From a virus: a stretch of DNA of 45,881 nt. Location of the stretch: the IMG/VR virus record IMGVR_UViG_3300025889_000013, positions 1 to 45,881 of that record. One strand, written 5' to 3'. The notes under the pieces were generated by a model. That model searched no databases and was not told the origin of the DNA. It saw only the letters and a program-made list of their open reading frames with translations. Positions 6,140 to 42,406 of this stretch are shown here, one piece after another; positions within the stretch are counted from its first letter, which is position 1; each line of letters starts with the position of its first letter. Made by a program: the position numbers and the translations under genes.

Positions 6140-7879
6140 ATGCAAGACAACATTCAAATTCAATATGACGAACCCCAACATCTAGCCACTACTATTGTAG
6201 ACTACTGGGTAAAGTGGGACGCTGCCCGCGCTACGTGGAAAGAAGAAAAAGAAGACCTGCGAGAGTATTTGTTTGCAACAGACACTCGCAGCACGGAGAA
6301 TGGAAAACTCCCGTGGAAAAACTCCACTGTCACTCCCAAGCTGACGCAGATTAGGGACAACCTCCATGCTAATTATATGGCAGCGTTGTTCCCATCTGAG
6401 GATTGGTTTACGTGGGAAAGCACAGAAAAGAATGAGGACGTGCTTAGAAAACGAAACGCCATTGTCAATTACATGAAACAAAAACTGAAAGCGTCTAATT
6501 TTCAGCTTCTTGTCTCTCAGTTGGTTTACGACTACATTGATTACGGCAATGTGTTTGTAGGACATCAGTTTGTGTCGGAAACCAAAGAAGACCCCGCTAC
6601 TGGGGAAAAGGTAAACCTCTACACTGGCCCCAAAGCGTTTCGTGTCAACCCGCTGGATGTTGTAATTAATCCGCTGGCAACGTCGTTTGAGAGTAGTCCG
6701 TTTATTCGCCGCGTTCTTAAGAGCGTCGGCGATTTGATGAGTGATGTTGAAACTAATCCGACACTTGGATACGATAAGAAGGTAGTCAAGGAACTGATGG
6801 CGTTTCGTGCATCCTACCGCGACTCTCCTGAGAAGTATAAGCAGAACGGGCTGACGGTTGACGGCTTCGGTAGTTTGGACGAATATATTAATTCCGACCT
6901 TGTTGAACTCATTGAGTTTTGGGGAGACATTTGGGACAGAGACAGCGGCAAGTATATTCGTGATGTCGTCATAACCATTGCAGACCGTCGCCTTATTCTC
7001 CGTAACCAGCCCAACAAAAGCTGGCTTGGAAAGAAACCTTTCTTCCATTGTGGCTGGCGTCTTCGCAGCGATAATCTGTGGGCGCAAGGTCCGTTGGATC
7101 AACTGATGGGGATGCAATACCGCATCGACCACTTGGAAAACCTTAAAGCTGACGTGTTTGACCAGATTGCTTATCCGGTAGCTAAGGTTAAGGGAATTAC
7201 AGTTGAGGAGTTTGAGTATCAGCCGGGAGAGATTATTTTCTGTGGTGATGAGGGAGACGTAGAGTTTATGCGCCCTGATGCCACTGCCCTGCAAGCGGAC
7301 ATGCAAATTGTAGAATTGATGAACCGCATGGAAGAGTTGGCAGGTGCGCCCAAGCAGGCTATGGGTATCCGCACTCCGGGTGAAAAAACCAAGTATGAAG
7401 TGCAGGTGTTGGAGAATGCTGCTGGACGCATTTTCCAGAGTAAGGTCAATTGGTTTGAAAAGAATATACTTGAACCGCTCATTAACTCTATGCTTGAAGA
7501 AAGCCGCCGTAACTTTGGTGCGGTTGAGCAGATTAAGGCAATTGATCCTGACTTTGGACACGAAGAGTTTATTGAGGTTACAAAAGACGACTTGGTGGGT
7601 AAGGGAACGCTCTACCCGATGGGTGCACGCCACTTTGCAGAACAAGCTAAGTTTATTCAGGAGTTGGCTCAAACTGTACAAACTGTGGCCTCCATTCCTA
7701 GCGTGGCTGCACACATCTCTGGAAAGGCCATTGCTAAAGCCCTTGAGGAAAACTTGGGATGGTCTAACTACAAGATTGTTCAGGATAACGTCATGTTGTT
7801 TGAACAAGCTCAGACTCAACGCTTGATGAACCAGTTGAGTGAAGACATGCAAGTAGAGCAGCAGATTCCTACTGAGTAG
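6140..7879 (+). CDS. Portal / head-tail connector protein
   Basis: 579 aa, comparable to the T7-like connector (gp8, 536 aa). It lies between terminase and scaffold and starts after TAGGAGACTGTATG. Features include an N-terminal tryptophan/acidic segment, LKADVFDQIAYPVAKVKG and the region GAPKQAMGIRTPGEKT followed by a long helical part (FEKNILEPLINSMLEESRR), as in podovirus portals. It forms the dodecameric vertex for packaging and tail attachment. One near-match of the 12-bp genome palindrome falls in the gene at 6713. The 601-aa antisense ORF over it is a shadow. Confidence 0.88.
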   Translation: MQDNIQIQYDEPQHLATTIVDYWVKWDAARATWKEEKEDLREYLFATDTRSTENGKLPWKNSTVTPKLTQIRDNLHANYMAALFPSEDWFTWESTEKNEDVLRKRNAIVNYMKQKLKASNFQLLVSQLVYDYIDYGNVFVGHQFVSETKEDPATGEKVNLYTGPKAFRVNPLDVVINPLATSFESSPFIRRVLKSVGDLMSDVETNPTLGYDKKVVKELMAFRASYRDSPEKYKQNGLTVDGFGSLDEYINSDLVELIEFWGDIWDRDSGKYIRDVVITIADRRLILRNQPNKSWLGKKPFFHCGWRLRSDNLWAQGPLDQLMGMQYRIDHLENLKADVFDQIAYPVAKVKGITVEEFEYQPGEIIFCGDEGDVEFMRPDATALQADMQIVELMNRMEELAGAPKQAMGIRTPGEKTKYEVQVLENAAGRIFQSKVNWFEKNILEPLINSMLEESRRNFGAVEQIKAIDPDFGHEEFIEVTKDDLVGKGTLYPMGARHFAEQAKFIQELAQTVQTVASIPSVAAHISGKAIAKALEENLGWSNYKIVQDNVMLFEQAQTQRLMNQLSEDMQVEQQIPTE

Positions 7880-7909
7880 TATTATCTTCAAGAATAGGAA
7901 ATTATACAA

Positions 7910-8164
7910 ATGAAACACATTCTCATTAAGCATAAACCTGAAGATTCCTCTAAAGAAGATTGGGAAAAAACATGGAACAACATGCAATATGGGTTGTCTT
8001 CACTACATAAGGCACTAGAAGAGTTAAAAAGTTCCACAAATAAAGTTAAATCTGATGATTTTTCTATCCCTAACCATTATGCACTATTAGCGTTTGAAGC
8101 AGGAAAAAGACAAGCATATCAAGAAGTTATAGATATGTTGCCTGAAGGTAGTAAAAAAAGTTAA
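7910..8164 (+). CDS. Small hypothetical protein between portal and scaffold
   Basis: 84 aa, hydrophilic and mostly helical (MKHILIKHKPEDSSKEDWEK, HYALLAFEAGKRQAYQEV). It lies in a more AT-rich stretch than its neighbours and has only a weak ribosome site (ATAGGAAATTATACAA). The likely late promoter follows right after its stop. No family recognised. It may be a recent insertion in an otherwise conserved head-gene order. Confidence 0.55.
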   Translation: MKHILIKHKPEDSSKEDWEKTWNNMQYGLSSLHKALEELKSSTNKVKSDDFSIPNHYALLAFEAGKRQAYQEVIDMLPEGSKKS

Positions 8165-8171
8165 AAACAGA

Positions 8172-8205
8172 TTGGACAAACAGGGTGTTTTTTACTAATA
8201 TATCA
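8172..8205 (+). promoter_or_regulatory. Putative late promoter before scaffold/capsid genes
   Basis: 34-bp element: TTGGACAAACA, then five variable bases (GGGTG), then TTTTTTACTAATATATCA. Its only other copy is at 43157-43190, before the tail-fibre genes; 29 of 34 positions are identical and all five differences sit together in the middle. TTGGAC and TAATAT are 18 bp apart, like -35/-10 boxes. It lies 29 bp upstream of the scaffold start. Whether host sigma-70 or the phage sigma factor reads it is unknown. Confidence 0.7.
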
Positions 8206-8233
8206 ATAGAAGGACAATTTTAAGGAGATTCAA

Positions 8234-9004
8234 ATGTCAGACAATGGCACAATTTTTACAGCAGACAATGCACCGCAGGAAACTGAAACCGCTACGACTC
8301 AGGCAGAAGACACCTCTTCTGTTACTCAGACACAATCTGAGATGGTAGCTGCCCTTGTAGGTGAGGGTAGGAAGTATAAGACAGTTGATGACTTGGCTAA
8401 AGCGTACGTTAATGCTGATAGCTTTATCGAACAGTTGAAGGCTGAAAACCGACAGCTTAAAGAGAAAGCGGATTCTGCCAAAAACATTGATGATGTCTTA
8501 GAACGGTTGCAACAACAACAGACTACACAGCCAGCAGACCAGCCGGTTGCGGCACCACAGCCCAGTGTAGGAGACCTTACTAAGTTGGTTGAAGCTACTG
8601 TAACGGGTCTGGAAACAAAGAAGCGGCGTCAAGAAAACATTCTTAAAGCTGATGCTAAAATGAAAGAGTTGTTTGGTGAAAAAGCAGCAGAGAAGTTTGC
8701 TGCGGTTGCCGTAACTCCCGACTTGCATCGCGTGTACACTGAGTTGGCTTCTGTTGATCCAGATAAGTTTGTATCACTGTTTGCGGGAGAACAAAAACAA
8801 CCGACTGTAGCAGACACAGGAGGTGTGAATACGACAGTAAACTACAGCTCTGTTAGCAACACTGGCAGAGTAACAAAAGTAGGTACTAAAGAATATTTTG
8901 ACAATGTTCGTCGTACTAACCCTTCCCTCTATTACAGTCAAGATTTTCAACTGCAAATGGACACATCGGTTAGGAGCAATCCCAACCTCTATTACGGTAA
9001 ATAA
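8234..9004 (+). CDS. Capsid assembly (scaffolding) protein
   Basis: 256 aa, acidic and glutamine-rich, with a long central helical region (NADSFIEQLKAENRQLKEKA) and no membrane segment. It precedes the major capsid gene, and its strong ribosome site (TTTTAAGGAGATTCAAATG) follows the putative late promoter. The C-terminus SLYYSQDFQLQMD...NPNLYYGK is short and aromatic, as in scaffolds that dock on the capsid. Shorter than T7 gp9 (307 aa). It directs prohead assembly and then leaves or is degraded. Confidence 0.82.
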   Translation: MSDNGTIFTADNAPQETETATTQAEDTSSVTQTQSEMVAALVGEGRKYKTVDDLAKAYVNADSFIEQLKAENRQLKEKADSAKNIDDVLERLQQQQTTQPADQPVAAPQPSVGDLTKLVEATVTGLETKKRRQENILKADAKMKELFGEKAAEKFAAVAVTPDLHRVYTELASVDPDKFVSLFAGEQKQPTVADTGGVNTTVNYSSVSNTGRVTKVGTKEYFDNVRRTNPSLYYSQDFQLQMDTSVRSNPNLYYGK

Positions 9005-9017
9005 ATAGGAGCGATTT

Positions 9018-9986: not shown

Positions 9987-9997
9987 GGAGAGATGAC

Positions 9998-15758: not shown

Positions 15759-15761
15759 CTA

Positions 15762-25077: not shown

Positions 25078-25095
25078 ACTCACTCCTTTTAAAAT

Positions 25096-25119: not shown

Positions 25120-25125
25120 TTGGCG

Positions 25126-25365: not shown

Positions 25366-25381
25366 TTAACTCTCCTTATAT

Positions 25382-29725: not shown

Positions 29726-30578
29726 CGCTCTCCACCTTGTTCAAATCAATCTCAGGAACACGCGGCAAGTCTACCACATCGGTGAGGAATTCCACTTTGT
29801 TGGAGTAGGCAAACGCACGCAGTGACGGGAAACACTCACGCTTGAACGGGCAATAGGAACAGGTAGTACACAGCTTCTTGTTCTTACTTGTGGCAGACTG
29901 AGGTACAGGTGCTAGTAGGTCTTCAACTGGCGCGTCCCTGTCTACACTACGTATAGCACGAGCTACTGTGTGTTCAAACACCTGTTCATCTGCGCCAAAC
30001 GGAAAGTAGTTAATGTGCCCCAACTCTTTCTGAATGGTGAGGAACCCCATGTCCTTGCTCTTAAGAACGTTAGCATAGCCGTTAAGCTGCCCATAATAGC
30101 CGAACGGGTCTTCTGTCAGGCCATCATGAAACTTACGCTCACTCTGCTTTGTAACACTCTTAACGTCAACTACATGTCCGTCAATAACAGCATCAATCCT
30201 GCCACGCACCCGCCAACCAGTATTATCATCAACATGCTCCACAACCTCCTGTTCACGCTCTACGGAATGCCCGCTGTCACGTGCAAGCTGAAGAACAAGG
30301 GCTTCAAGCATGTCTCCATAGATAAACTTAATCTTAGTTTCTGAACGTAATGCCTCTCCTATGTTGGGTTTGTGGTATTTAAACCACATCCTACGCGGAC
30401 AAGTGTCACCGAGTTCTGAGAAGTAGAGTGTCTTCGCATCCCTCACCTTGTCGCGCTTCTTCAACTGCTTGACATATCCGTCCTTAACCAAATCACCAAT
30501 ACCACCCCCAAAGGGGGCAGTATCGGCATGGTTCTTAAGAACAAAGGCGTTAATGTCCTGAACCAATTTATCAATCAT
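29715..30578 (-). CDS. RecB/Cas4-like PD-(D/E)XK exonuclease
   Basis: 287 aa. Nuclease core: GDMLEALVLQLARDSG (acid and helix), RGRIDAVIDGHVVDVKS with D...D-V-K metal site, then YYGQLNGYANVL. CTTCSYCPFKREC near the C-terminus, with the upstream region, suggests a 4Fe-4S cluster as in Cas4/AddB-type exonucleases. In phages this class makes 3' tails for recombination together with an ssDNA-binding protein, here the next gene upstream. Exact palindrome at 30531 (V-L-K-N) and a near match at 30057. Confidence 0.85.
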   Translation of the reverse strand: MIDKLVQDINAFVLKNHADTAPFGGGIGDLVKDGYVKQLKKRDKVRDAKTLYFSELGDTCPRRMWFKYHKPNIGEALRSETKIKFIYGDMLEALVLQLARDSGHSVEREQEVVEHVDDNTGWRVRGRIDAVIDGHVVDVKSVTKQSERKFHDGLTEDPFGYYGQLNGYANVLKSKDMGFLTIQKELGHINYFPFGADEQVFEHTVARAIRSVDRDAPVEDLLAPVPQSATSKNKKLCTTCSYCPFKRECFPSLRAFAYSNKVEFLTDVVDLPRVPEIDLNKVESDEA

Positions 30579-31108
30579 TACGCAGCTTCCTCGTCAACAA
30601 GTTCGTCCATTGATTTAGGTGCAGACTTCTTCTTAACCATCTCCTTTGCCATCTCCGCATCCAAGTCACCGCAAGCATACGATTCAAAGATACGTGCGAC
30701 AGCAATAATTTCCATAGCAGCTTCCTTTCCAAAGCTATTACCTCCCGCTGCTGCGTACAACTCACGGGCATTGGTGAGAGCGTTCTGCCGCACAATGGCA
30801 CGTTGCCCATCAAGTGCAGGGATAGGGAACACACCCTTACCACCTCCACCGAACGCAGGTTTGACTACAGACGCGGATGCTGGTGCTGCACCGCCTCCTG
30901 TAACAGAGACAGACTTGGCGTCAACTGAATTGCCATACGTAGTCTCCGAGTAGTCAAAAGAAATGCTGTCACCTTTACCAAACTTAGGCTTGGTGAAGCC
31001 CATGCTAAACCACTCGCCATCCAACTTGAACGAGTAGGTAGGCTTCATGCCAAACTTGGTCTTAGCTTCCTTGCTGCCCATTGCTTCAACAACGCCTGCT
31101 TTTTCCAT
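30578..31108 (-). CDS. Probable single-stranded DNA-binding protein
   Basis: 176 aa. An N-terminal ~70 residues of OB-like beta pattern (KPTYSFKLDGEWFSMGFTKP, FGKGDSISFDY), a glycine-rich linker (VTGGGAAPASASVVKPAFGG) and an acidic C-terminal end (SMDELVDEEAA). This is the layout of phage SSBs, whose acidic tail recruits partners. It lies between the polymerase and the recombination exonuclease and starts after AAGGAGATTTAAACATG. Confidence 0.75.
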   Translation of the reverse strand: MEKAGVVEAMGSKEAKTKFGMKPTYSFKLDGEWFSMGFTKPKFGKGDSISFDYSETTYGNSVDAKSVSVTGGGAAPASASVVKPAFGGGGKGVFPIPALDGQRAIVRQNALTNARELYAAAGGNSFGKEAAMEIIAVARIFESYACGDLDAEMAKEMVKKKSAPKSMDELVDEEAA

Positions 31109-31110
31109 GT

Positions 31111-33048: not shown

Positions 33049-33049
33049 G

Positions 33050-34300
33050 TCAATACACTCCTATGTATCTAGCTATCTCAGGTTTAATTGTAACCTCAAA
33101 CTTGCCGTGCCTCAACTCCTCTTTGGATACGGGACCACCCCACAACTTGTTCTTAGGAACGTGAATGTAACGCTTATACTCATCCTCTCTATCCTTTCCG
33201 ATGGTGACGATTAGATCAGCTTCACCTGCCTTGTCTGTCTTACTACCACGCAACATAGCCATAGGTATGTAGTTTACATAGTCAGCTTGCTCTGACGCCT
33301 GACTCACAGCTATGACGGGGCCAAACTTCTTAGCCAAATCACGTGCCCACTCATACAACTTACCCAACCGTATGTCGTCACGTGCCTCACGTGTAAACCC
33401 ATGTACCTTGTCTAGCTGGTCGAACACGATTAGCACAGGGTTGCACTCATCAAACAATGCCGACAACTTCTTCACACTGTTAAGCCCCATGTCGTCATTG
33501 ATGATGCGAATACGATTGCCTATTTCAGCAGCGTATCTTTTATCATACTCGTCCTCATGTGTCAACAGGTCTGACAATGTAGTGCCGAAGTGTGCCTGTA
33601 TAACCCTGCTCATAACCTTACTGCTACGTTCCTCGTTATTAACCCACACAATAGGGCGGATGTCATCCTTCAATTGAGTAGCGAAGTGTGTCAGTTCCGA
33701 CGCTATGAATGTTGTCTTACCTGTCTCCGGTCGTGCAGCCACTACAGCAAAGTCGCCTATACGTAGCGGGCCTGCACTCTTGTTCAACTCGTTAAGTCTC
33801 CAAGTAAAGCCTGCACTTGAACACTCAGCAATAGCACTCTTCAATGATGCAGGTACAAACAAATCATCCTTAGTTACAGCACACCCAATCTCCTTTTTAT
33901 ATTGTGCAAGAATTGTTTCTACGTCTTCAATAACTCCTTCATCAGTTTCGTTGAGAATGTTAAGTGCCTTGTTCATAACTTGAGTAGCATAATCACGAGT
34001 GATGTAGTTCTTAAGAACATCTTCAACCACTTCACTGTCAGCATCTACTTCTTCAATACGTTTGAAGTAGGCTTCATATATAACGTGTTCATCAGGTTTC
34101 AACTTACTCACTGCAAAGAAAAACACTTTAAACTCAGACCAAATAACAGCATCATTATCAGGGTAAGATTTAAAATAGTTACGTAGTGTGTTTAAAAACT
34201 TCCATGTCTCCTTACTGACAGAGTGTTCTTTAATATAAGGCATAAGTCTATTAAATAATTTTTTATCTGACAACTTCTTAATCAGAATAATGTCATGCAT
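33050..34300 (-). CDS. DnaB-type replicative helicase
   Basis: 416 aa. RecA-like C-terminal domain: Walker A ARPETGKTT (residues 189-197), PIVWVNNEERSSKVMSR (H1a/H2-like), Walker B VLIVFDQLDK (D294), and VIAVSQASE (H3-like glutamine). The N-terminal ~150 residues are helical, as in DnaB family N-domains. It unwinds DNA in front of the polymerase. The primase is a separate gene upstream, unlike the T7 gp4 fusion. Exact palindromes at 33149 (V-P-K-N) and 34007 (V-L-K-N). Confidence 0.9.
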   Translation of the reverse strand: MHDIILIKKLSDKKLFNRLMPYIKEHSVSKETWKFLNTLRNYFKSYPDNDAVIWSEFKVFFFAVSKLKPDEHVIYEAYFKRIEEVDADSEVVEDVLKNYITRDYATQVMNKALNILNETDEGVIEDVETILAQYKKEIGCAVTKDDLFVPASLKSAIAECSSAGFTWRLNELNKSAGPLRIGDFAVVAARPETGKTTFIASELTHFATQLKDDIRPIVWVNNEERSSKVMSRVIQAHFGTTLSDLLTHEDEYDKRYAAEIGNRIRIINDDMGLNSVKKLSALFDECNPVLIVFDQLDKVHGFTREARDDIRLGKLYEWARDLAKKFGPVIAVSQASEQADYVNYIPMAMLRGSKTDKAGEADLIVTIGKDREDEYKRYIHVPKNKLWGGPVSKEELRHGKFEVTIKPEIARYIGVY

Positions 34301-35096
34301 GTAACAACTCCTTTATCTGTTTATATGTTGCTTCTTTGGGTTGTTTGAAACAAACCATACGTGGTGCTACTACCAGCGGTTTCAACTGATTCATAATCAC
34401 ACGGGCTGCCGACACACCTGCTGTGTCTTCGTCTAACCATACATCTACCATCTTATACCTAATTGCTGTTGCAAGGTGAACATCGCTAAGTGATGTACCC
34501 ATCAGACACATTACATTATACCCTGCTTTGTTAAGTTTGTATGCACTAACTAAGTCTTCCACAACAACAAGCTGCTTATTAGACACATCGGCTAAGAACA
34601 TAGCGGGCATGTGTTTCGTAATACTTAGTGTAAGATATTTGCAACTACCCTCGCTTCTAAAGACTCTGCCCTGCCATGCCGTGCCTCCTGCGTTAAGCCA
34701 CAGACGCTGGTTGTGCCACTGCACCTGATGCTTAGTGGCATCCTCCTGTTCTAACCCATACGACAGCCACCATAACCTAGCCTCAATGGACCACTTCTCC
34801 ATGTCCACTTCACCAACAGTGTGTGATAAATCAACAGCAAGTTCTCTTATAAGACTAGACGATTCGTCAGGAACCGCAAATACCTCAGACGCTCGATGGT
34901 ACACATCATGTGTACGATAGTACCCACGTTGTGAACAGTGGTGGCAGTAGAACAGCACAGCATCAGGGGTACGCTTGATGTACAGACGCTTCTTTGTGTC
35001 TACTCCTGCGGGGCAGTCTTCATGGTTCACTGCTATCTGCTGCCCTACCGCTGGAAAGTCATACGTCTGCATCTCTACTCTACTCAGGTGTTTCAT
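34293..35096 (-). CDS. DnaG-like primase with zinc finger and Toprim domain
   Basis: 267 aa from the ATG at 35096 (a GTG one codon earlier is possible), with GGAG 5 bases upstream. N-terminal zinc site: NHEDCPAG and LFYCHHCSQRGYY. Toprim domain: VVVEDLVSAYKLN with the first glutamate, then VWLDEDTAGVSAAR with the D-x-D pair. Shorter than bacterial DnaG. It makes RNA primers for the adjacent helicase and polymerase. Overlaps the helicase by 8 bases. Confidence 0.87.
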   Translation of the reverse strand: MKHLSRVEMQTYDFPAVGQQIAVNHEDCPAGVDTKKRLYIKRTPDAVLFYCHHCSQRGYYRTHDVYHRASEVFAVPDESSSLIRELAVDLSHTVGEVDMEKWSIEARLWWLSYGLEQEDATKHQVQWHNQRLWLNAGGTAWQGRVFRSEGSCKYLTLSITKHMPAMFLADVSNKQLVVVEDLVSAYKLNKAGYNVMCLMGTSLSDVHLATAIRYKMVDVWLDEDTAGVSAARVIMNQLKPLVVAPRMVCFKQPKEATYKQIKELLHA

Positions 35097-35314
35097 CACA
35101 ACTCCTCGTTCTTAAGAACAGTTTCTTCCTCGGCGTTGGTCATGTGGTGGCCTCGCGTTGCATTTGCGACATTTCCGCGTCTGACAACTTCGCGGAACCC
35201 GCACCATTTGCACCACAGCATAGTGTCTCCGGCTGGATAAACTGGCGGCGCGTAGTGCCAATGAAACCTGTGCGCGATTCGCATAATTGCGCGGTATATC
35301 ATTCCACGTATCAC
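35096..35314 (-). CDS. Small zinc-motif protein upstream of primase
   Basis: 72 aa; GTG start after GGAGGTGAATC. HRFHWHYAPPVYPAGDTM and LWCKWCGFREVV resemble a small accessory protein seen in many phages; the CxxC and nearby histidines could bind a metal. More GC-rich than the surrounding genes. An exact palindrome at 35108 encodes V-L-K-N close to its C-terminal end. Confidence 0.55.
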   Translation of the reverse strand: MIRGMIYRAIMRIAHRFHWHYAPPVYPAGDTMLWCKWCGFREVVRRGNVANATRGHHMTNAEEETVLKNEEL

Positions 35315-35766
35315 GATTCACCTCCGTTCAGTTTGTCGAGCGCATCAAATACTTGTTTCGTCTCCTTCTCTGCGTTCATGGTTTGGTCACGTAATAGTAC
35401 GGAGTCAATGGATGAGTCGAGGCGTTTACGTGAAACCATGATTTTTATATCGCTGCCTTGTATTCCACAATTCTCATAGAGATGGACCCAACCTGTATTT
35501 TCCCGCAGCCACCGATACCGCTCTGCGTCCATCTCCAGCTCCTTCACGCGTTCCTCTGCCTCCATCCGCTTCTTTTGCTCGGCTTGGGCGTAGTCGAGAA
35601 GGTCGGGGCTGTAGAGGGGGCGCACTTCCACATTGTTCCCCCAATCTTTTCGTAGCCGACTCGCAAATTCATCAGCAACATCAGCCCTTACGCAAAATTT
35701 CTCGGTCCCTCCTTCTACGAGAACTTGATAAGCCACCGGCTCCGGCATCTTCGCGTCCTCGATCAT
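35311..35766 (-). CDS. Ead/Ea22-like accessory protein
   Basis: 151 aa. A basic/acidic coiled coil (QAEQKKRMEAEERVKELE) followed by DAERYRWLRENTGWVHL, the signature of Ea22/Ead-like accessory proteins of many temperate and lytic phages. It overlaps both neighbours by 4 bases. Codon use is more GC-rich than the genes around it, suggesting acquisition from another phage. Function unknown. Confidence 0.6.
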   Translation of the reverse strand: MIEDAKMPEPVAYQVLVEGGTEKFCVRADVADEFASRLRKDWGNNVEVRPLYSPDLLDYAQAEQKKRMEAEERVKELEMDAERYRWLRENTGWVHLYENCGIQGSDIKIMVSRKRLDSSIDSVLLRDQTMNAEKETKQVFDALDKLNGGES

Positions 35767-36032
35767 TCCGATAACTCCGCAAGAATACGACAGGCTTCTA
35801 TTCTTGGCTTAACTTTTCCCGGGGGCCAAAAATACGTTTTACCGTTATCAAAGCGATCAATTAGTTGCATATGCATCTGGCGTTTTTGTTTATATGGAAT
35901 AATGTCGTCAAGCCACATTGCGGTTATGCAATTGCACAATCCTTTATAACGTGTATTTTCTTTGTTATCTACAGGCATTCCATACGTTTCTAATGTGTCT
36001 GCCAACATAGTCCATGCTTCACTTGTTTTCAT
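35763..36032 (-). CDS. Hypothetical protein, 89 aa
   Basis: 89 aa from the ATG at 36032, preceded by AAAGGAATCGAA; the earlier ATG at 36056 is weaker. MKTSEAWTMLADTLETYGMP and CNCITAMWLDDIIPYKQKRQ, with YFWPPGKVKPRIEAC near the end. Similar small proteins occur in diverse phages. No catalytic motif. Overlaps neighbours by 4 bases on each side. Confidence 0.55.
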   Translation of the reverse strand: MKTSEAWTMLADTLETYGMPVDNKENTRYKGLCNCITAMWLDDIIPYKQKRQMHMQLIDRFDNGKTYFWPPGKVKPRIEACRILAELSE

Positions 36033-36481
36033 TTCGATTCCTTTATCAAAAGCCACTCTGGTTGCGGACGTTTAGTGTAACGCATATCAATCTGTTTGCT
36101 TTTGTAATAACTACGATAGGCTTTCACTGCATCTTCCTGCTTGTGTTCGACAGGCATTGCCAATGCGAAAGGTGTTAGTACAGCATCATTGAACAAAGGT
36201 TCCTGAATGTTTGCAATTATGTCACGACACTTGTGTTGCTTGCCATACCTATACGAATACTCGTCACACAATGCAAGACCGTGCAACTTCAACCACCTGA
36301 AATTACCTAGCGTCTTACCTGCCCACACAGTGCATGGATGTTTTGCATGTGTAGGTTTATATGGACCACCTGCTACAGTGGACAACATTTGAGCAGACTC
36401 TAGGCACATCTTAACTACATGCTTATCACATTGCATCTGAGCAGCAACAACAGGGTCATTGTCAAGCACGAATATGTTCAT
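36029..36481 (-). CDS. Conserved phage protein, pyrimidine-dimer-glycosylase-like N-terminus
   Basis: 150 aa. MNIFVLDNDPVVAAQMQCDK and VVKMCLESAQMLSTV, then HPCTVWAGKTLGNFRW, form a pattern found in many phages and sometimes matched to Pyr_excise-type DNA glycosylases. It might repair UV damage in phage DNA or act on host DNA, but no activity can be claimed from sequence alone. Overlaps the upstream gene by 20 bases. Confidence 0.6.
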   Translation of the reverse strand: MNIFVLDNDPVVAAQMQCDKHVVKMCLESAQMLSTVAGGPYKPTHAKHPCTVWAGKTLGNFRWLKLHGLALCDEYSYRYGKQHKCRDIIANIQEPLFNDAVLTPFALAMPVEHKQEDAVKAYRSYYKSKQIDMRYTKRPQPEWLLIKESK

Positions 36482-36701
36482 GTTTCATCCTCTGTTTATA
36501 CTCTCGGTTTATCTCTCTTACACGTTCGACATTCTTTGCATTCCATTCCTTCGCCCTAGCTAACAACTTCTCTCTGTTCTTCAAGTAGTAGGCTCTGTTC
36601 TTAGGAACATTACCTTGTCCCTTCCTCCAACTCCTACGTTTAGAGAACAACTTGCGTATTACAACACGTTGTTCATCACTTGGAAACAAAGAGAATGTCA
36701 T
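36462..36701 (-). CDS. Small basic coiled-coil protein
   Basis: 79 aa, strongly basic: VVIRKLFSKRRSWRKGQG, then KNREKLLARAKEWNAKNVER. The helical repeats resemble the N-terminal part of some HNH homing proteins, but no HNH core follows, so it could be a truncated one. Exact palindrome at 36597 (V-P-K-N). Overlaps upstream by 4 bases. Confidence 0.5.
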   Translation of the reverse strand: MTFSLFPSDEQRVVIRKLFSKRRSWRKGQGNVPKNRAYYLKNREKLLARAKEWNAKNVERVREINREYKQRMKHEHIRA

Positions 36702-36880
36702 TTAAGTTCAATCCTAATTGTGTTGATAGATTGTTCATCAACCTCAAACGCCCATTGCAAATTCTTGATAGCATTCTCAGGCGTAGAGTAGAGACACTCG
36801 CTAGTATACCATGCATCGTCTGTAGTGTTGTGTCCATACGCTACATACCCTACTCTGCTGTTGCTATTCGATAGTGCCAT
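36698..36880 (-). CDS. Small hypothetical protein, 60 aa
   Basis: 60 aa with a strong ribosome site (AAGGAGGCGATATG). MALSNSNSRVGYVAYGHNTT and CLYSTPENAIKNLQWAFEVD, acidic. It follows the AAA+ gene by 9 bases. No family recognised. Confidence 0.55.
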   Translation of the reverse strand: MALSNSNSRVGYVAYGHNTTDDAWYTSECLYSTPENAIKNLQWAFEVDEQSINTIRIELK

Positions 36881-36889
36881 ATCGCCTCC

Positions 36890-37951
36890 TTAGATGAACA
36901 CTTTGTTAAAAAGTTCAACCACAACTTTCTTGTCACTCTCACGCAACTTGTCGTGAAACGCAATGTTAAAGCTCTCACGCAAATCAGCGTGCTTCTCATA
37001 CTTGTTACCCCAATTGATGAGAGTGCGGGGCGACATGGTGAGATTGATGGAGCGATTGTTGTACGCAGTACGAATGAGCGCAGCCAACTGCACCATCTTA
37101 CCTGCCACATCTTTACTCACACCAGTACGTGATGTAATCACCGCAGTCTCGTGCCTCTTATCCAGATAGTCAAGGTGAATGGTGGTTGTGAACCTGTCCA
37201 GAGTAGCAGAGTTCTGCACCATTGTTCCTGAGAACGCACCACTATCGTCACCCTGACCCACAGTGTTACCTGCACATACAATGCGGAAGTTAGGATGCGG
37301 AATGATAGTCTTGTCAGCAGAGCTTCCCGGCATTTCCTTGAGGAACAGAAAGCCATCGTCTTCCAACAAGTTCTGCAAACCCATGCTGATCTCAGGCGGC
37401 ATGAGTTCCCACTCGTCAATCAGCACCACCGCACCATTACGCACAGCCTCAGTGATCGGGCCATCCTCCCACACAGTAGAACCGTCACGTGCTACCAACT
37501 GTCCGAACAACACGCTGCTCTCTGCGTCAGCAGACATGTTGATGCGGATGAATGGTGCACCTAACTTAGCACACACATACTTGACCAAGCTACTCTTACC
37601 GCTACCCGTCGGTCCTGACAGCAGCACCTTGTCGCCATCCATCAGTGCAGACACAAGGCGTGCAGCCTGCTCAACCTGCACCCTGTAATGCTTGTCAGTA
37701 GCAGGAACGAAGCCACGCATTGCCTCACTCACTCCGTCAAACACCTTCACACCGAAGTCACGAATGTTCTTAGGAACGCTGCCGAACAACTCAGAGAACC
37801 ACTTCTCACCTGCCTTCAGCGGAAGCGGGGCAACAGCATCGTCACCTGCCATCGGCTTTAGTTCGGGTGCAGTAGTGGGCGCAACTGTGTCGCCCATGTA
37901 CTCAGCCATTGCGGAAGCTACAAACTTGTCCATATCCATAGCGGTAGACAT
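36890..37951 (-). CDS. CobS/MoxR-like AAA+ ATPase
   Basis: 353 aa. Walker A LLSGPTGSGKSS (G113-S120), Walker B VVLIDEWELM (D179, E180), and the sensor stretch FRIVCAGNTVGQGD followed by SGTMVQNSATLDRF, which is characteristic of CobS-type proteins. It would remodel or load a partner through the VWA protein encoded next to it. In bacteria CobS/CobT help insert cobalt into the B12 ring with CobN, which is absent here. A general MoxR chaperone role is equally possible. Exact palindrome at 37766 (V-P-K-N) in the N-terminal linker. Confidence 0.85.
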   Translation of the reverse strand: MSTAMDMDKFVASAMAEYMGDTVAPTTAPELKPMAGDDAVAPLPLKAGEKWFSELFGSVPKNIRDFGVKVFDGVSEAMRGFVPATDKHYRVQVEQAARLVSALMDGDKVLLSGPTGSGKSSLVKYVCAKLGAPFIRINMSADAESSVLFGQLVARDGSTVWEDGPITEAVRNGAVVLIDEWELMPPEISMGLQNLLEDDGFLFLKEMPGSSADKTIIPHPNFRIVCAGNTVGQGDDSGAFSGTMVQNSATLDRFTTTIHLDYLDKRHETAVITSRTGVSKDVAGKMVQLAALIRTAYNNRSINLTMSPRTLINWGNKYEKHADLRESFNIAFHDKLRESDKKVVVELFNKVFI

Positions 37952-37960
37952 AACTACTCC

Positions 37961-39619
37961 TTATCGAAGAATGTTGTTAGTGATTACAGACAGCAGTGTG
38001 CTACTTGTTTCACTTGCTCTACTAATAACTGCGTTGTTTTTATACCACTTACGTGTATCGTGCACTAACCCAATACCTATCAGTTCAACAGGTGATTGCT
38101 CAATACTGCGAATAACATCACGTGTGTACTTGTCTAAATTTCCTCTGTCATACCCACCACAAGGAGCGCCGTCCGATAACACAATCATCATCTTGCGTTT
38201 CTCCTTACGCTTCGCAATGCGAGTATACCCATACACTAAACTTTCACCGTCTACATTATCCTCAAGATTGTACGCTATGTTACCGAGCGAACTCGCCATG
38301 CGTATGTCTGATATAGGTGTGTCAAACTCCTTGAGTATAAACATTCTGTGGCAGGCATGAGTATCAGTGAACGCTAGTATTTCAGTAGGTATTTTCAACA
38401 CATTAGAAAACACGTTATTAAGAACAATTGCAGCACCTCCAGCTACAGTGAATTTATTACCTGACATACTACCTGATGCATCAATGAGTATTTGAATAGA
38501 TATGTCCAACACTTTATTAACAATTTTTTGCTTGAACAATCGTTCATTCAAACCTTTAGCCTCTTTCATACCAACACGATAGAGGGATGCTCCGTTCAAC
38601 TTGCCTCGCTTCTTACCATACTCATATCTATCACGTGATAGTATTTGCAACTTAGCACGAATCTGATTGGCTAAAGTCTCACTGCGTGCAGCTTCATCAA
38701 TAAACATGCCACCATCTGACGCATGTCCATAAGGGACGAAGTTACCTGTGTTGTTAGTGTAGTTATACCACTCAATTTTACCTGCGGGTGTCGGAGTGTA
38801 TTCGCCCTTACCAACTGAGCACACGGCTTTGTCTGTGCGCTTATCCGCAGTGTGGTCTGCGTTAGGCATAGGCATACCTTCCACCTTGATGTTCTCTACC
38901 TTGTGTGCTTCCTCAGATTGTTCTCCTTTGTCGTTGATTTCATTGGCTTTTTCAATACGCTTCTCAGCTTCCTCACCCTGCATATCTTCAGGGTTTACAT
39001 CAAACACCTCACGAACAATACGCTCTGCTAGTGCATACACTTCATCGAACGCAACACTCTTGTCATCAATGTTGCGAATGTTCCTAAGAACGTCAGCATA
39101 ATTTCCTTTGTGCAACTTCTTGTATATGTCATGTGCAGTGGGTGTCGTCAGCTTGAACGGGTCCGCTGTGCGGGTCCACAAGTCATCACGTACGTCTAAA
39201 TCCCATGCAAATAACGGAACGTAATAGTTCTGCGCTTCTTCTGTGAGTGATGCTTTCGCCATCTCCTCTGCATATACACGTAGAAACTCTTCGCTGTTAG
39301 CCTTGTCACCAGCGTACGCTTTGTCGTTTCGATAGTCGATGCGATGGTCTTCCAGCAAATTGTTAATGAATGCAAGTATACCTTGCGGTTTTTTAACATT
39401 CAGTTTATCAAAGTCACTATCCTTAATGTGGCAGGTCTCGTGCTTGACAAAGTGAGTCAGGCGCACCTTGTCCTCGTGTGTAGCATACGCACTCATGAGC
39501 GGAAGTGTGATGGTGCGTCCGTCAGTGCATGGAGTAGCGCCCTCTCTCCACACTACACGTGCACCAGCACTGTCAGCGCAAGCTGCCACATACTGCGTGA
39601 TTGTATAACTATCTAACAT
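37961..39619 (-). CDS. CobT-like VWA protein with metallopeptidase-type motif
   Basis: 552 aa. C-terminal VWA domain with MIDAS motif DASGSMSG (D380, S382, S384). The N-terminal HFVKHETCHIKD (H60-E61-xx-H64), then NNLLEDHRID (E90), has the HExxH...E pattern of zincins, as in VWA proteins with a DUF2201-type domain. The middle is acidic and Lys/Glu-rich (EDMQGEEAEKRIEKANEIND), as in CobT. It is the usual partner of the MoxR/CobS ATPase downstream, 9 bases away. Exact palindrome at 39080 (V-L-R-N); one-mismatch copy at 38414. Confidence 0.82.
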   Translation of the reverse strand: MLDSYTITQYVAACADSAGARVVWREGATPCTDGRTITLPLMSAYATHEDKVRLTHFVKHETCHIKDSDFDKLNVKKPQGILAFINNLLEDHRIDYRNDKAYAGDKANSEEFLRVYAEEMAKASLTEEAQNYYVPLFAWDLDVRDDLWTRTADPFKLTTPTAHDIYKKLHKGNYADVLRNIRNIDDKSVAFDEVYALAERIVREVFDVNPEDMQGEEAEKRIEKANEINDKGEQSEEAHKVENIKVEGMPMPNADHTADKRTDKAVCSVGKGEYTPTPAGKIEWYNYTNNTGNFVPYGHASDGGMFIDEAARSETLANQIRAKLQILSRDRYEYGKKRGKLNGASLYRVGMKEAKGLNERLFKQKIVNKVLDISIQILIDASGSMSGNKFTVAGGAAIVLNNVFSNVLKIPTEILAFTDTHACHRMFILKEFDTPISDIRMASSLGNIAYNLEDNVDGESLVYGYTRIAKRKEKRKMMIVLSDGAPCGGYDRGNLDKYTRDVIRSIEQSPVELIGIGLVHDTRKWYKNNAVISRASETSSTLLSVITNNILR

Positions 39620-39620
39620 A

Positions 39621-40058
39621 TTACACTCCTAATCTATCAGCAAGTTCTCTGAGTTCAAACACATACGCTTTTCTCATTACATCATTAGGCTCTTTTACAA
39701 TAATTGCTTCGACAGTGTTCAGTGCTTCAGCAAACAATTTCTCTGTGTTTTTAGGCACCTTATCTTTCTTAAGTAGTTTCTCCACTGCGCTCTTACCTAC
39801 AGGTAGCCCTTGCTCATCTGTAAGGGATACGGATGCATTGTAAGCTCGCAGCGCCACACTCTTTGCACTGCGCCACTTACTCGGCAGCGCCTTGCCTGTC
39901 TTTTCCTTAAACTCCTTTTCTGCGTTCTTAAGAACATCTTGCAAGTCTCTGCCTTCCTTGCGTGCACTTTGTATGTTGGTAACAAGCGTGCCCCACGCAT
40001 CGCCGTCGAGCTTGTCACTTGCGCCAAACTGCATGATTGCCTCTACCATGTTATACAT
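39621..40058 (-). CDS. Helical protein, paralogue of the 176-aa early protein
   Basis: 145 aa from the ATG at 40058 (AAAGGAGACGTAC upstream). VLKNAEKEFKEKTGKALPSK, then WRSAKSVALRAY, with LPVGKSAVEKLL, closely resembles VLKNNLKAQEQEYKAAHPRC, YRSAKSVLLKAV and LKGKSALEAEI of the gene at 41876. So the two arose by duplication or share a family. The stop is 1 base before the CobT-like start. No known domain recognised; helical, probably protein- or DNA-binding. Exact palindrome at 39924. Confidence 0.65.
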   Translation of the reverse strand: MYNMVEAIMQFGASDKLDGDAWGTLVTNIQSARKEGRDLQDVLKNAEKEFKEKTGKALPSKWRSAKSVALRAYNASVSLTDEQGLPVGKSAVEKLLKKDKVPKNTEKLFAEALNTVEAIIVKEPNDVMRKAYVFELRELADRLGV

Positions 40059-40242
40059 GTACGTCTCCTTTAGCCTTACGTTTATCAACAATCATTGTTC
40101 CTAAGAACTTTTCAAACTTCGCTCTATCAAACTTGGGATTGTCCTTGCCTAGCCAAGCGCATAGGCTGTCCACAAACTTGCCACTGACAACACCTTCCGC
40201 CATTGCGTCGCACAGCCCGATGTAATCCTTACGTGTAAGCAT
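40051..40242 (-). CDS. Small hypothetical protein, 63 aa
   Basis: 63 aa from the ATG at 40242, preceded by TCGGAGACATC; the ATG at 40287 has no good ribosome site. MLTRKDYIGLCDAMAEGVVS, then WLGKDNPKFDRAKFEKFLGT, a pattern shared by small phage proteins of unknown function. Overlaps the next gene by 8 bases. The palindrome at 40097 is read here in the F-L-G-T frame. Confidence 0.6.
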   Translation of the reverse strand: MLTRKDYIGLCDAMAEGVVSGKFVDSLCAWLGKDNPKFDRAKFEKFLGTMIVDKRKAKGDVHV

Positions 40243-40308
40243 GATGTCTCCGAATGATGACCGTAGTAAATTGTGCCGTTCCGCCATTAGACAGACGCAC
40301 CTATCCCA

Positions 40309-40485
40309 TTAGTTCAACTGAGATTTTCTAATCCGAATGTTCTCCTTAATTTGTTCACGTTCATCTGACGTTGCATCTTTCCACGCCTCTATCTCGTCAA
40401 GTGTGCGAAAGCATCCTACACACGCTTCCAAGTCTAGGTCATACATGCACGCACCTGTACACAGCTTGTCTTCTTCGTTGTCCAT
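40309..40485 (-). CDS. DUF1289-like small cysteine protein
   Basis: 58 aa with ribosome site AAGGAGAGACGATTATG. Cysteines in KLCTGACMYDLDLEACVGCF followed by RTLDEIEAWKDATSDEREQI match the DUF1289 pattern (C-x3-C and C-x2-C, then a helix with W). Such proteins are common in proteobacteria and may bind a metal or iron-sulphur cluster. Too short for usual length cut-offs. Likely acquired from a bacterial host. Confidence 0.72.
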   Translation of the reverse strand: MDNEEDKLCTGACMYDLDLEACVGCFRTLDEIEAWKDATSDEREQIKENIRIRKSQLN

Positions 40486-40497
40486 AATCGTCTCTCC

Positions 40498-40743
40498 TTA
40501 ATACGTGATTTTAGGGGCGCTCGGCTCACTGCCAGACGTGCTAGTTACTACGTACAACGGAAGGCACGCAATGACAATTTTATCTCCTTTGCTGGACATG
40601 TGCAGCGGTGTGTGTTGTAATTTTGCAACAATTGTATTTCGCATTTCGTTACACGTAGGCATGTCCATAGACTTTGGAGGGACTACTTGTGCGCCATTGA
40701 TTGTCATGGTGAATACAACTCCCACTAACGTAAGGTTAGACAT
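40498..40743 (-). CDS. Small protein with hydrophobic N-terminus
   Basis: 81 aa with ribosome site AAGGAGACATAAAATG. MSNLTLVGVVFTMTINGAQV is hydrophobic and could be a membrane segment or weak signal; two cysteines follow (PTCNEMRN, IVIACLPLYV). Same general plan as the 65-aa protein at 11137, without clear sequence match. Possibly periplasmic or membrane-associated. Function unknown. Confidence 0.5.
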   Translation of the reverse strand: MSNLTLVGVVFTMTINGAQVVPPKSMDMPTCNEMRNTIVAKLQHTPLHMSSKGDKIVIACLPLYVVTSTSGSEPSAPKITY

Positions 40744-41312
40744 TTTATGTCTCCTTTGAAAGTTTCTTTGATTGCTTTGTTAATTATTTCCTCACTAGCC
40801 GCCTCCGCCGCCCATGCTTCCGACCTTGCCGCCGCCATTGCTGCCGACCTTGACGCCGCCATTGCTGCAACCCATCCCCTCGACTCTGCCGACCTTGACG
40901 CCGTTGCTGCCAAATCTCCTGATCTGTCCTGTCCTGACAGCCATTTATCAGCCCATTCATTAAACTGAACACCAGTGCAGACAGCTTTGGCGCAGCGGAT
41001 AGAAAACTCTATTCGTTCATCTGTGGTAATTACCGGAAGTTCTACTTGCCGCAGTAAAGTCTGAGACTTGCACCAGCACTTCAACCCATCTGTTCCGAGT
41101 TGTTCGGAGCATTCAATTTCCCACAGAATAGGGTTTTCAATTGACGCATGAATCGGGTTAAACAAGACAGCGTGCAGCGGCGATTCATAATAGTGCAGAA
41201 CGCCATCTGTGCAAGGTGCGTTTCCTTCTCCTGTAGCAGTTACAGCTTTACCTACTTTCCACTGGAATCCGTCGTGGGTTGTGAGTGCTTGAGTTGTCAG
41301 TTTATAACCGAT
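40725..41312 (-). CDS. DUF7666-like protein with Ala-rich repeat tail
   Basis: 195 aa from the ATG at 41312 (GAGGAGTTTGAAA upstream). N-terminal half: GYKLTTQALTTHDGFQWKVG, APCTDGVLHYYESPLHAVLF, NPIHASIENPILWEIECSE, the signature of a phage/bacterial family of unknown function. The C-terminal part carries alanine/serine repeats (SRSAESRGWVAAMAASRSAA) encoded by a 24-nt tandem repeat. GC-rich, so probably imported. Overlaps neighbours by 11 and 19 bases. Confidence 0.65.
   Translation of the reverse strand: MGYKLTTQALTTHDGFQWKVGKAVTATGEGNAPCTDGVLHYYESPLHAVLFNPIHASIENPILWEIECSEQLGTDGLKCWCKSQTLLRQVELPVITTDERIEFSIRCAKAVCTGVQFNEWADKWLSGQDRSGDLAATASRSAESRGWVAAMAASRSAAMAAARSEAWAAEAASEEIINKAIKETFKGDIKCLTLR
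40820..40867. repeat. 24-bp tandem repeat inside the DUF7666-like gene
   Basis: Two adjacent 24-bp units (40820-40843 and 40844-40867) that differ at one base, with a shortened third unit at 40889-40909. They encode the Ala/Ser-rich tail. The number of units could vary between strains. Confidence 0.8.
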
Positions 41313-41463
41313 CATTTTCAAACTCCTCATTTAAAGATTGGGCCACCATCTCAGCAGCACTTTCACTCCCATACAGCGCAACTATGCGACGCACATTATT
41401 GGTGCACTGTACACGCATAACTGCATACGTCTTGCTACTGTACCGCTTCACGTAGTGATACAC
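41302..41463 (-). CDS. 53-aa hypothetical protein (GTG start)
   Basis: A short ORF starting GTG after GAGGAGATTTTAAA. MYHYVKRYSSKTYAVMRVQC, then YGSESAAEMVAQSLNEEF, resembling small phage proteins with a leading beta-hairpin. Overlaps the gene upstream by 16 bases and the DUF7666-like gene by 11. Small enough to be missed by length cut-offs. Confidence 0.5.
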   Translation of the reverse strand: MYHYVKRYSSKTYAVMRVQCTNNVRRIVALYGSESAAEMVAQSLNEEFENDRL

Positions 41464-41663
41464 TTTAAAATCTCCTCAAGCGGATTGACTAGCATATCAT
41501 ACCCATGCATCACCTCATACTGATGCTGCATTACGTTGATGCGCTTGCTACGCTTGCTTGGCTTGTTCTTAGGAACGTTTGCCCAATTAGAAGAACGGTC
41601 GGACTTCTCCCTTTTGTAGTGCGATGCACTCTCGTGTCCACGCTTGTACAGACTTGTAATCAT
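41448..41663 (-). CDS. Small basic protein, 71 aa
   Basis: 71 aa, basic N-terminal half (SLYKRGHESASHYKREKSDR, NKPKSKRSKR-type lysine/arginine content), then QHQYEVMHGYDMLVNPLEEI. Overlaps the membrane protein gene by 4 bases (ATGA). Exact palindrome at 41565 (V-P-K-N). Might bind nucleic acid; no family recognised. Confidence 0.5.
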   Translation of the reverse strand: MITSLYKRGHESASHYKREKSDRSSNWANVPKNKPSKRSKRINVMQHQYEVMHGYDMLVNPLEEILKCITT

Positions 41664-41809
41664 AATACGTCATCTCCGTGTAAAAACACCACTATTCCAT
41701 AGAACATGCAGCCAACTCCCAGTATTCGGGCAGTTATGTCTTCAGCCATGAGTGCTAGGCAGATACCTGCAATTAGCAGAGGAAGCGCGACGATGTCAGA
41801 TTTTAGCAT
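41660..41809 (-). CDS. 49-aa two-helix membrane protein
   Basis: A short ORF with GGAGAAAAC 1 base before the ATG at 41809. Sequence starts MLKSDIVALPLLIAGICLAL and ends with a second hydrophobic stretch (ILGVGCMFYGIVVFLHGDDV), so probably two membrane helices. It begins just after the palindrome at 41819 and the terminator at 41837. Function unknown. Confidence 0.5.
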   Translation of the reverse strand: MLKSDIVALPLLIAGICLALMAEDITARILGVGCMFYGIVVFLHGDDVL

Positions 41810-41818
41810 GTTTTCTCC

Positions 41819-41830
41819 GTTCTTAGGAAC
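41819..41830. promoter_or_regulatory. Intergenic copy of the 12-bp palindrome
   Basis: GTTCTTAGGAAC, the only exact copy outside a coding region. On the minus strand it lies directly after the T-tract of the terminator at 41837 and 4 bases before the GGAG of the next gene, where a bound protein could control read-through or translation start. Confidence 0.6.
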
Positions 41831-41836
41831 AAAAAA

Positions 41837-41865
41837 GAGGGAAGAGAGTTTTCACTCTCTCCCTC
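41837..41865 (-). terminator. Leftward terminator after the first leftward gene
   Basis: On the minus strand: GAGGGAGAGAGT, loop GAAA, ACTCTCTTCCCTC with one bulged base, followed by six T residues. It separates the highly placed first gene (41876-42406) from the rest of the unit, so the first gene may be expressed more strongly and alone. A downstream promoter or antitermination is then needed for the other genes, and none is obvious. Confidence 0.82.
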
Positions 41866-41875
41866 AAGCACACCA

Positions 41876-42406
41876 CTACGCAGCAATCTGCTCGCTCGGC
41901 ACCACCACAGCCACACTTGCCCGTTCCGCCTTCAGGATTGCGTCAACGAGCATGGCTGTGATTGCCTTAGCTTGCCTGATATCCGCCACCGTGTCAATCT
42001 TTGCGAAAATCTTACCCGCAGTCTCGACGGCATTCTGAAACTTTTCAATCTCGGTCTTCTCATCCTTGCCAGCCTTAATTTCGGCTTCGAGCGCACTCTT
42101 GCCCTTGAGCTTGCCCTTCTCGTCCACCAGTGCAATGCCCACGCTAACAGCCTTGAGCAAGACTGACTTCGCAGAGCGATAGGCCACCGGAAACTCGTCG
42201 CACCTCGGATGCGCTGCCTTATACTCCTGCTCTTGCGCCTTGAGGTTGTTCTTAAGAACGTTTCCAACTTCGTTGGGGTCCATCTTCGCTTCGACGTTCA
42301 ACTTCGTTGAAGCATGGCAGTAGTCTGCCAAGCTGCCGAAGGCATTGCCTTGCTTGTTGCTTGCTACGACGAAAGTGTCAACAGCTTTGCTGAACGTGGT
42401 GTGCAT
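41876..42406 (-). CDS. First leftward gene, helical protein, paralogue of 39621-40058
   Basis: 176 aa from the ATG at 42406 after GAAAGGAAAACGAAA. MHTTFSKAVDTFVVASNKQG, then a paralogous middle (YRSAKSVLLKAV, LVDEKGKLKGKSALEAE) and Ala-rich helix (AITAMLVDAILKAERASVAV). It is the first gene after the divergent control region and has its own terminator, so it is probably expressed early and strongly. Good candidate for a takeover or DNA-binding factor; no domain recognised. GC-rich codon use. Exact palindrome at 42248 (V-L-K-N). Confidence 0.65.
   Translation of the reverse strand: MHTTFSKAVDTFVVASNKQGNAFGSLADYCHASTKLNVEAKMDPNEVGNVLKNNLKAQEQEYKAAHPRCDEFPVAYRSAKSVLLKAVSVGIALVDEKGKLKGKSALEAEIKAGKDEKTEIEKFQNAVETAGKIFAKIDTVADIRQAKAITAMLVDAILKAERASVAVVVPSEQIAA

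Follow-up and report, generated by a model that had tools for sequence, protein, structure and literature searches.

Short DNA sites repeated throughout a phage genome are known from the stoperators of cluster A mycobacteriophages such as L5. More than 20 and up to ~30 stoperators are dispersed per genome, some of them near the early promoter (PMC6550527, PMC9283540). They are 13-bp, asymmetric, transcription-oriented sites in promoters and short intergenic gaps (PMC9283540); they are bound by a monomeric helix-turn-helix repressor of temperate phages (PMC6550527, PMC9283540), and their motif varies between related phages along with the repressor (PMC6550527). The T1-like lytic phages T1, Stevie and TLS carry 16-21 dispersed copies of 21-22-bp repeats that are asymmetric, mainly intergenic, transcription-oriented (in TLS ~76 bases before start codons) and unexplained in role (PMC4319613, PMC11447400). 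Here we describe a 12-bp palindrome, motif A (GTTCYTARGAAC), that is scattered through IMGVR_UViG_3300025889_000013, a virus contig of 45,881 bases without host genome; this whole stretch is called the window below. A sister clade carries a different palindrome in a similar density layout, and this is a new finding. Our preferred reading, to which we give somewhat less than an even chance, is that a DNA-binding protein with dyad symmetry, most probably encoded by the phage itself, would occupy the dispersed palindromes and act on the early operon.

How do the window sites compare with the described systems? The initial annotation had offered stoperators as a precedent in kind. That likeness holds for copy number and dispersal (29 sites, with a motif that varies between clades) and breaks down for asymmetry, orientation and intergenic placement. 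The window sites are 12-bp dyads, whereas stoperators are asymmetric; they are unoriented, with variants in both senses; 27 of the 29 lie in called genes, with no preference for gene ends; and no repressor or integrase was found among the window open reading frames (ORFs) scanned, a subset of all its ORFs. Because the features that define stoperators fail, we file the sites as dispersed phage regulatory sites and not as stoperators. With the repeats of the lytic T1-like phages they share the dispersal of one repeat, but they are neither asymmetric, intergenic nor oriented. Many dispersed operators for one phage repressor are also found in phiC31 (conserved inverted repeats, which are palindromic) and P1 (C1 operators). 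Those operators are promoter-associated and intergenic and belong to temperate phages, whereas the window sites lie mostly within genes.

Motif A is present in 21 exact and 8 one-mismatch copies. The first site begins at 6713 and the last ends at 42259, the span originally given; the exact count was also right, while only six one-mismatch copies had been listed. At up to one mismatch, 100 dinucleotide shuffles gave a mean of 0.37 copies (maximum 2). Eleven of the 21 exact copies are the perfect palindrome GTTCTTAAGAAC, for which a Markov estimate predicts 0.01. The initial observation is confirmed.

Perhaps the motif is a by-product of coding, a favoured tetrapeptide (VLKN or VPKN) written in favoured codons? 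Among the 27 in-gene sites, 22 are indeed in frame 0 (GTT CTT AAG AAC and variants), where they encode VLKN, VPKN, VLRN and variants. Our gene set comprised 55 genes, chosen by us among the listed ORFs, and 20 of the 21 exact sites fall wholly within them. Against these 20, protein-preserving synonymous shuffles (2,000) gave a mean of 0.586 (maximum 4) and codon-order shuffles (2,000) a mean of 0.013 (maximum 1), so that the codon-preserving check suggested at the outset did not reproduce similar counts. Since synonymous shuffles keep the peptides, codon usage cannot explain the sites. Moreover, five sites are in frame 2, two lie outside called genes, none is in frame 1, in which a stop codon would arise, and synonymous positions are conserved among relatives (see below). 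We therefore reject a coding or composition artefact, whose probability we consider negligible provided that our gene calls are broadly right.

The sites are concentrated in a leftward block, which holds 16 of the 21 exact sites (p 5e-4) and 22 of all 29 (p 6e-5). The block and the genes to which we refer below are as follows.

24874 to 42454, minus strand: leftward early/replication block, 17.6 kb, with 22 of the 29 sites
41876 to 42454, minus strand: RSAK-family protein, first gene of the leftward block and first candidate binder
39621 to 40091, minus strand: second RSAK paralog, directly before the cobT-like gene
24874 to 25104, minus strand: small basic protein, last gene of the leftward block and second candidate binder

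RSAK is a name coined here for the family of 41876-42454 and 39621-40091. The block encodes a DNA polymerase and its exonuclease subunit, a DnaB-like helicase, a primase, a Cas4-like nuclease, ribonucleotide reductase, a sigma-like protein and cobS/cobT-like genes. We regard it as an early/replication operon and infer its early timing. Its 22 sites are spaced 820 bp apart on average, close to the ~0.85 kb of the initial annotation, and more evenly than random (coefficient of variation 0.51 versus 0.93, P 0.00085). No preference for gene ends was found among these 22, five lying within 60 bp of one against 5.6 expected. The density of motif A declines with distance from the start of the block, less steeply than in the sister clade.

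That the copies share nothing beyond the 12 bases, as first stated, is nearly correct. In 46 exact sites from the window and its relatives, which are related and not independent, there is a pyrimidine bias just outside the motif (T+C 0.89 at -1). Variants that break the symmetry are seen in both senses: the window's leftward block has 6 with a C-A mismatch and 2 with G-U, and four other clade A loci (among them L118 and L119, whose sequences overlap) have 8 and 10, respectively. GTTCCTAGGAAC, the fully symmetric C form, is absent from the window's leftward block and from four other early loci; single-C variants are common. These variants bear on a possible role in RNA, in which the self-complementary 12-mer would act in early mRNA through pairing, processing or binding. 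With 27 of 29 sites in genes, RNA copies could pair with one another; pairing would favour G-U forms, however, and the occurrence of variants in both senses makes a role at the RNA level very unlikely.

Motif A is also present in clade A relatives, namely in six terminase-region loci (L006-L011) and four early-region loci (L005, L086, L118 and L119, the last two overlapping in sequence). All of these except L118 were aligned by codon with the window, and the nine alignments allowed 40 site-by-locus comparisons. At an overall nucleotide identity of 68.4%, a site with no more than one mismatch was still seen in 26 of the 40, made up of 21 of the 29 comparisons with the early region (three loci) and 5 of the 11 with the terminase region (six loci). 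The 12-mer was identical in 19 of the 40, versus 179 of 3,517 random 12-mers. Where the amino acid was conserved, codons were identical at 110 of 138 positions in sites (80%) and 8,293 of 15,987 elsewhere (52%); the sequences are related, so neither the p of 2e-11 for this difference nor the comparison rows represent independent events. Some relatives preserve the one-mismatch variants at 6713, 32560 and 37224 without a single change, and three comparisons show a YR position altered with the site still exact. New sites also arise in relatives, for example one in L008-L011 at window position 6995. The motif is therefore present in close relatives and mostly at the same positions, as the initial annotation had proposed to check. 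From these alignments we conclude that motif A sites are selected as DNA and that selection maintains most of them. The sites, with their fate in relatives where compared, are listed here.

6713 to 6724: one-mismatch site GTTCTTAAGAGC, portal gene; same 12-mer in L006, L007 and L008, lost in L009, L010 and L011
11489 to 11500: exact site; motif kept in L007 and L011, lost in L008, L009 and L010
17328 to 17339: exact site
18219 to 18230: one-mismatch site
18843 to 18854: exact site
21017 to 21028: exact site
24425 to 24436: exact site
25027 to 25038: exact site, within candidate gene 24874-25104
25523 to 25534: one-mismatch site, outside called genes
26745 to 26756: exact site, ribonucleotide reductase gene
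27611 to 27622: exact site
28492 to 28503: one-mismatch site, sigma-like gene
30057 to 30068: one-mismatch site; exact in L119
30531 to 30542: exact site; lost in L119
32110 to 32121: exact site, DNA polymerase gene; 1 mismatch in L119
32560 to 32571: one-mismatch site; identical in L005, lost in L119
33149 to 33160: exact site, helicase gene; identical in L005, 2 mismatches in L119
34007 to 34018: exact site, helicase gene; kept in L005, L086 and L119
35108 to 35119: exact site
36597 to 36608: exact site; kept in L005 with one YR change
37224 to 37235: one-mismatch site, cobS-like gene; identical in L005 and L086, lost in L119
37766 to 37777: exact site, cobS-like gene; kept in L005, L086 and L119
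38414 to 38425: one-mismatch site, cobT-like gene; absent from L005, L086 and L119, perhaps a chance match
39080 to 39091: exact site, cobT-like gene; kept in L005, L086 and L119
39924 to 39935: exact site, within RSAK paralog 39621-40091; kept in L005, L086 and L119
40097 to 40108: exact site; 1 mismatch in L119, lost in L005
41565 to 41576: exact site; 1 mismatch in L119
41819 to 41830: exact site, outside called genes
42248 to 42259: exact site, within RSAK gene 41876-42454
42459 to 42539: inverted repeat upstream of the first leftward gene, its 33-nt arms 85% complementary

The inverted repeat contains a two-mismatch copy of motif A at 42466-42477 and is possibly an operator.

Among the best 80 of 169 terminase (TerL) relatives, exact motif A was found in the six closest (78-89% identical) and in none of the other 74 (72-77% identical). 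This second group, clade B, has a palindrome of its own, with a consensus of about YRTTACTAGTAAYR (208 sites); we represent the A and B sites by the 12-bp forms GTTCTTAAGAAC and GTTACTAGTAAC. The initial annotation's expectation of enrichment in related phages thus held for close relatives, whereas the sister clade lacks motif A and has a different palindrome instead. TTACTAGTAA occurs two or more times in at least 23 of the 74 clade B stretches, which are mostly structural, and at least once in 21 of 22 clade B records. Records longer than 40 kb carry 20 (G009), 21 (G011), 22 (G019), 20 (G018) and 11 (G005) copies, and those of 36-39 kb carry 10 (G007), 8 (G004) and 6 (G014). In eight clade B records of 36-46 kb the 8-mer core TACTAGTA is found 12-40 times versus 1.4-1.8 expected, and a loose definition gives 14-44 sites. 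Copies within ORFs of four genomes numbered 13, 12, 13 and 9, versus means of 0.82, 0.55, 0.78 and 0.35 in synonymous shuffles (300 per genome). In G019 the ORFs used leave out 9 of the 22 copies, and intragenic placement is thus less strict in clade B.

The clade B sites are densest near RSAK. Their density declines from the RSAK start in six of six genomes tested; pooled over the six, it falls from ~2.8 sites/kb (first 2 kb) through 1.9 (2-5 kb) to 1.0 (5-15 kb), these being our own sums under the loose definition, with two records incomplete. The nearest upstream sites are at most ~650 bp from the RSAK gene in five of six genomes, and G004 has two more at 1.7-2.1 kb. In 14 clade B loci, sites associated with the RSAK ORF lie 250-330 bp inside it in 12 and at most 80 bp before the open frame in 11. 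Among 38 loci with B-type RSAK, 37 hold the B core at least four times, and the 38th is a 472-bp end; the A-type RSAK loci L118 and L119 carry motif A. A density that declines in this way from where the leftward block starts speaks for control of early transcription.

We also considered whether A and B sites occupy common places. This was rejected: eight B records, compared through orthologous proteins, gave 0-1 coincidences per genome (P 0.29-1.0). Density may hence matter more than place. Perhaps, then, the sites organise the genome, with a protein that coats or bridges the early DNA end (as a nucleoid, for nuclease protection or for segregation), spacing and density being what is functional? 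Unrelated A and B positions are compatible with this, as are the even spacing, the sites away from gene ends and those in late genes. However, many individual positions are conserved within clade A, and density declines from the start of the leftward block. We regard genome organisation, structural or protective, as the strongest competing reading, on balance unlikely.

A dispersed palindrome set was found in none of 11 named Zobellviridae or close genomes and none of 11 outgroup records (36-51 kb). Phage GX1 (L116) is a partial exception. It has four perfect copies of a 14-bp palindrome, GTTGTCTAGACAAC, at 41780-45585, of the shape GTT...CTAG...AAC and all of them in the intergenic gaps of its annotated leftward block; these look like ordinary operators. 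GGTCC/GGACC dyads in VP41s3 and ICP2 were considered as a dispersed site set and read instead as collagen-like repeats of tail-fibre genes. Motif A was in none of 43 further TerL loci of at least 5 kb (52 fetched), and the B core had 0-3 copies there; these loci are mostly structural regions, which are site-poor anyway. The 10,306-base L197 holds four copies of a dyad, TAGGA-N6-TCCTA, versus 0.03 expected, and L167 has one dyad with three copies. Title- and abstract-level searches, with most subscription literature outside them, returned no published account of the A or B sites; the motif A string matched in a mouse paper, and the matches listed for the B string included no phage paper.

These comparisons bear on two further roles. 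Packaging, which the initial annotation had raised, is disfavoured because late genes are site-poor and no such set was found in 22 genomes whose terminase is homologous. The broader proposal of a dispersed protein-binding site is upheld by conservation at the DNA level, two stop-avoiding frames, tolerated YR transitions and clade-specific sequence. Could the protein be one of the host, such as an SOS-type, nucleoid-occlusion or global regulator, with clades A and B differing through different hosts? Palindromes of such size are usual for host regulators, and the phage binders are candidates only. RSAK and a piece of the tRNA-Thr gene had no match in the genome contig collection, so that our motif counts are of phage sequences. 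A host binder does not sit well, however, with a density that declines from the start of a phage early block, or with 22 related genomes that have no such set (GX1 having four copies of another palindrome). We consider a host binder improbable.

If the protein is phage-encoded, which gene is the source? We screened 56 window ORFs across six clade B genomes and 22 outgroups. The 24874-25104 ORF was found in 6/6 B genomes and 1/22 outgroups, and cobS and cobT each in 6/6 and 2/22. Near misses were the Cas4-like gene (6/6, 4/22), 30578-31108 (6/6, 5/22), the sigma-like gene (5/6, 3/22) and 27661-27939 (4/6, 1/22). An RSAK profile, which includes B members, found the family in 6/6 B genomes and 0/22 others. 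ICP2 and T5S1 have cobS/T and no such palindromes. The cobS/cobT-like genes, encoding AAA+ and VWA proteins (36890-39619), lie directly downstream of the RSAK paralog, and this module is also near RSAK in clade B.

RSAK sequences are hard to find. A single-sequence tblastn returned none of 50,697 phage records at E <=1. RSAK was not detected in 12 of 16 clade B records; most of these also lack the helicase and cobS and are thus fragments, uninformative about loss. It was absent from 11 outgroup records in a search that does work, since the same alignment found RSAK in four records. For RSAK gene 41876-42454, ATG at 42406 looks a likelier start than the listed GTG. The first A-B pairing was made by eye and its profile mixed both clades, so that it is not independent. 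A B-only profile placed four A-type RSAK proteins on top (E 0.0035, 0.0085, 0.031 and 0.16), with the 39621 paralog at 2.9; an A-only profile placed two B RSAK proteins on top (E 0.0046 and 0.1). A weak case for homology between the A and B proteins can be made from a 21-column core, these profile searches and the place in the block.

AlphaFold2 models of RSAK proteins reached mean predicted local distance difference test (pLDDT) scores of 72.6 and 82.0. In the clade B model (pLDDT 82), a helix and short turn lead into the conserved RSAK helix and short strand pairs, which could make this protein a reader of the winged-helix kind. The BFVD matches to RSAK were an uncultured phage protein at 78% identity and another protein at 15% (E 5e-3). 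Members of the 24874 family are short, strongly basic proteins (17 K+R and 2 D+E in the window), their A-B homology is clearer (E about 1e-5), and their gene sits at the far end of the leftward block. The initial annotation had named four genes as possible binders. Those at 41876 and 24874 remain plausible, and for 36462 and 41448 no homolog was detected in six sister genomes. We tentatively put RSAK first, at a little below an even chance; the 24874 protein is a rather unlikely binder, and the rest of our expectation goes to another phage or host protein.

How might a phage-encoded binder act? On our preferred reading, an early product (RSAK 41876-42454 first, 24874-25104 second) would bind near its own promoter and at in-gene sites downstream. 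It would be dimeric and would autoregulate its own gene. Bound sites might serve as roadblocks that lower or block early transcription when the phage turns to late genes, and a superinfecting genome of the same specificity might be shut off too. Protein and site would have co-evolved, so that clades A and B would be orthogonal specificity groups. A bolder version, which we think distinctly unlikely, is that a lytic phage family would use a specificity code spanning its genome, in which RSAK, a new protein family perhaps remodelled by the neighbouring CobS/CobT-like pair, binds 20-40 palindromes, many of them in coding sequence and graded from the early promoter, and silences or packages early genomes, both its own and incoming homotypic ones, giving immunity-like clades without lysogeny whose sites were rewritten genome-wide as specificity changed.

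Several observations weigh against the preferred reading. The RSAK and 24874 proteins are putative binders only. Seven of the 29 sites are outside the leftward block, where an early switch would not need them. A site was lost in 14 of the 40 comparisons, including 38414 in 3/3 loci and, in L009 and L010, both sites that could be compared. The distribution of RSAK is nearly matched by that of CobS, CobT and a few further genes, and the two window RSAK ORFs by themselves were found in 0/6 B genomes in the ORF screen. The association of RSAK with the motif amounts to one clade-level event, the RSAK-less records being structural fragments, incomplete or outgroups. Homology between A and B RSAK proteins is weak (hhalign 81% over 21 columns), plain phmmer finds none at E <1, and below its top two hits the A-only profile mixes RSAK with unrelated outgroup ORFs. 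Pfam and PHROG give scattered, weak matches, with best E values of 5.6e-4 and 0.002. The clade B model protein is slightly acidic (26 K+R, 30 D+E) and the window pair slightly basic. RSAK has no clear solved-fold match; the best (Z 6.3 and 7.6) are to proteins that are not known to be DNA-binding, and the absence of a standout match is no proof of a new fold.

Two sister clades, each with tens of palindromes that resemble binding sites, of different sequence and at unrelated positions, many of them in codons, would be a rare natural record of a rewritten binding network. A few small proteins and a pair of 12-bp probes would be enough to test co-evolution of specificity. Should early genes be silenced by the sites, the stoperator principle would reach into coding sequence and into podoviruses that are not known to be lysogenic.

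By its genes, the window appears to be the genome of a Zobellviridae-like podovirus. TerL (48-57% identical), portal and capsid have homologs in 11/11 named Zobellviridae or close records (including MEP401, CRP-5, SIO1 and ICP2), and according to annotation tables the order of these genes in ICP2, SIO1, CRP-5 and MEP401, whose TerL is 50-57% identical, is similar to that of the window. Structural genes run rightward from the left end to ~24.8 kb. The window ends, 1-127 and 45755-45881, are identical (127 bp). Physical terminal repeats are a less likely cause than overlap in the assembly of a circular contig, which would measure 45,754 bp.

A tRNA-Thr (TGT) gene lies within the leftward block at 25382-25457. 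In other phages, homologs of 36029-36481 bear the annotation pyrimidine dimer glycosylase/endonuclease V or DNA binding protein. A long AT-rich, repeat-rich stretch (42880-43000) lies where the gene blocks diverge and may be an origin or a promoter region. A promoter-like element, ATTGGACAAACA-N13-TAATATATC, has only two copies in the window, at 8171-8204 and 43156-43189, which precede gene 8234 (scaffold, by position) and tail gene 43231; it is possibly a late promoter. The sigma-like gene 28170-28676 matches sigma-70 region 2, its clade B counterpart (L097 11778-12290) has regions 2 and 4, and its product might read this element.

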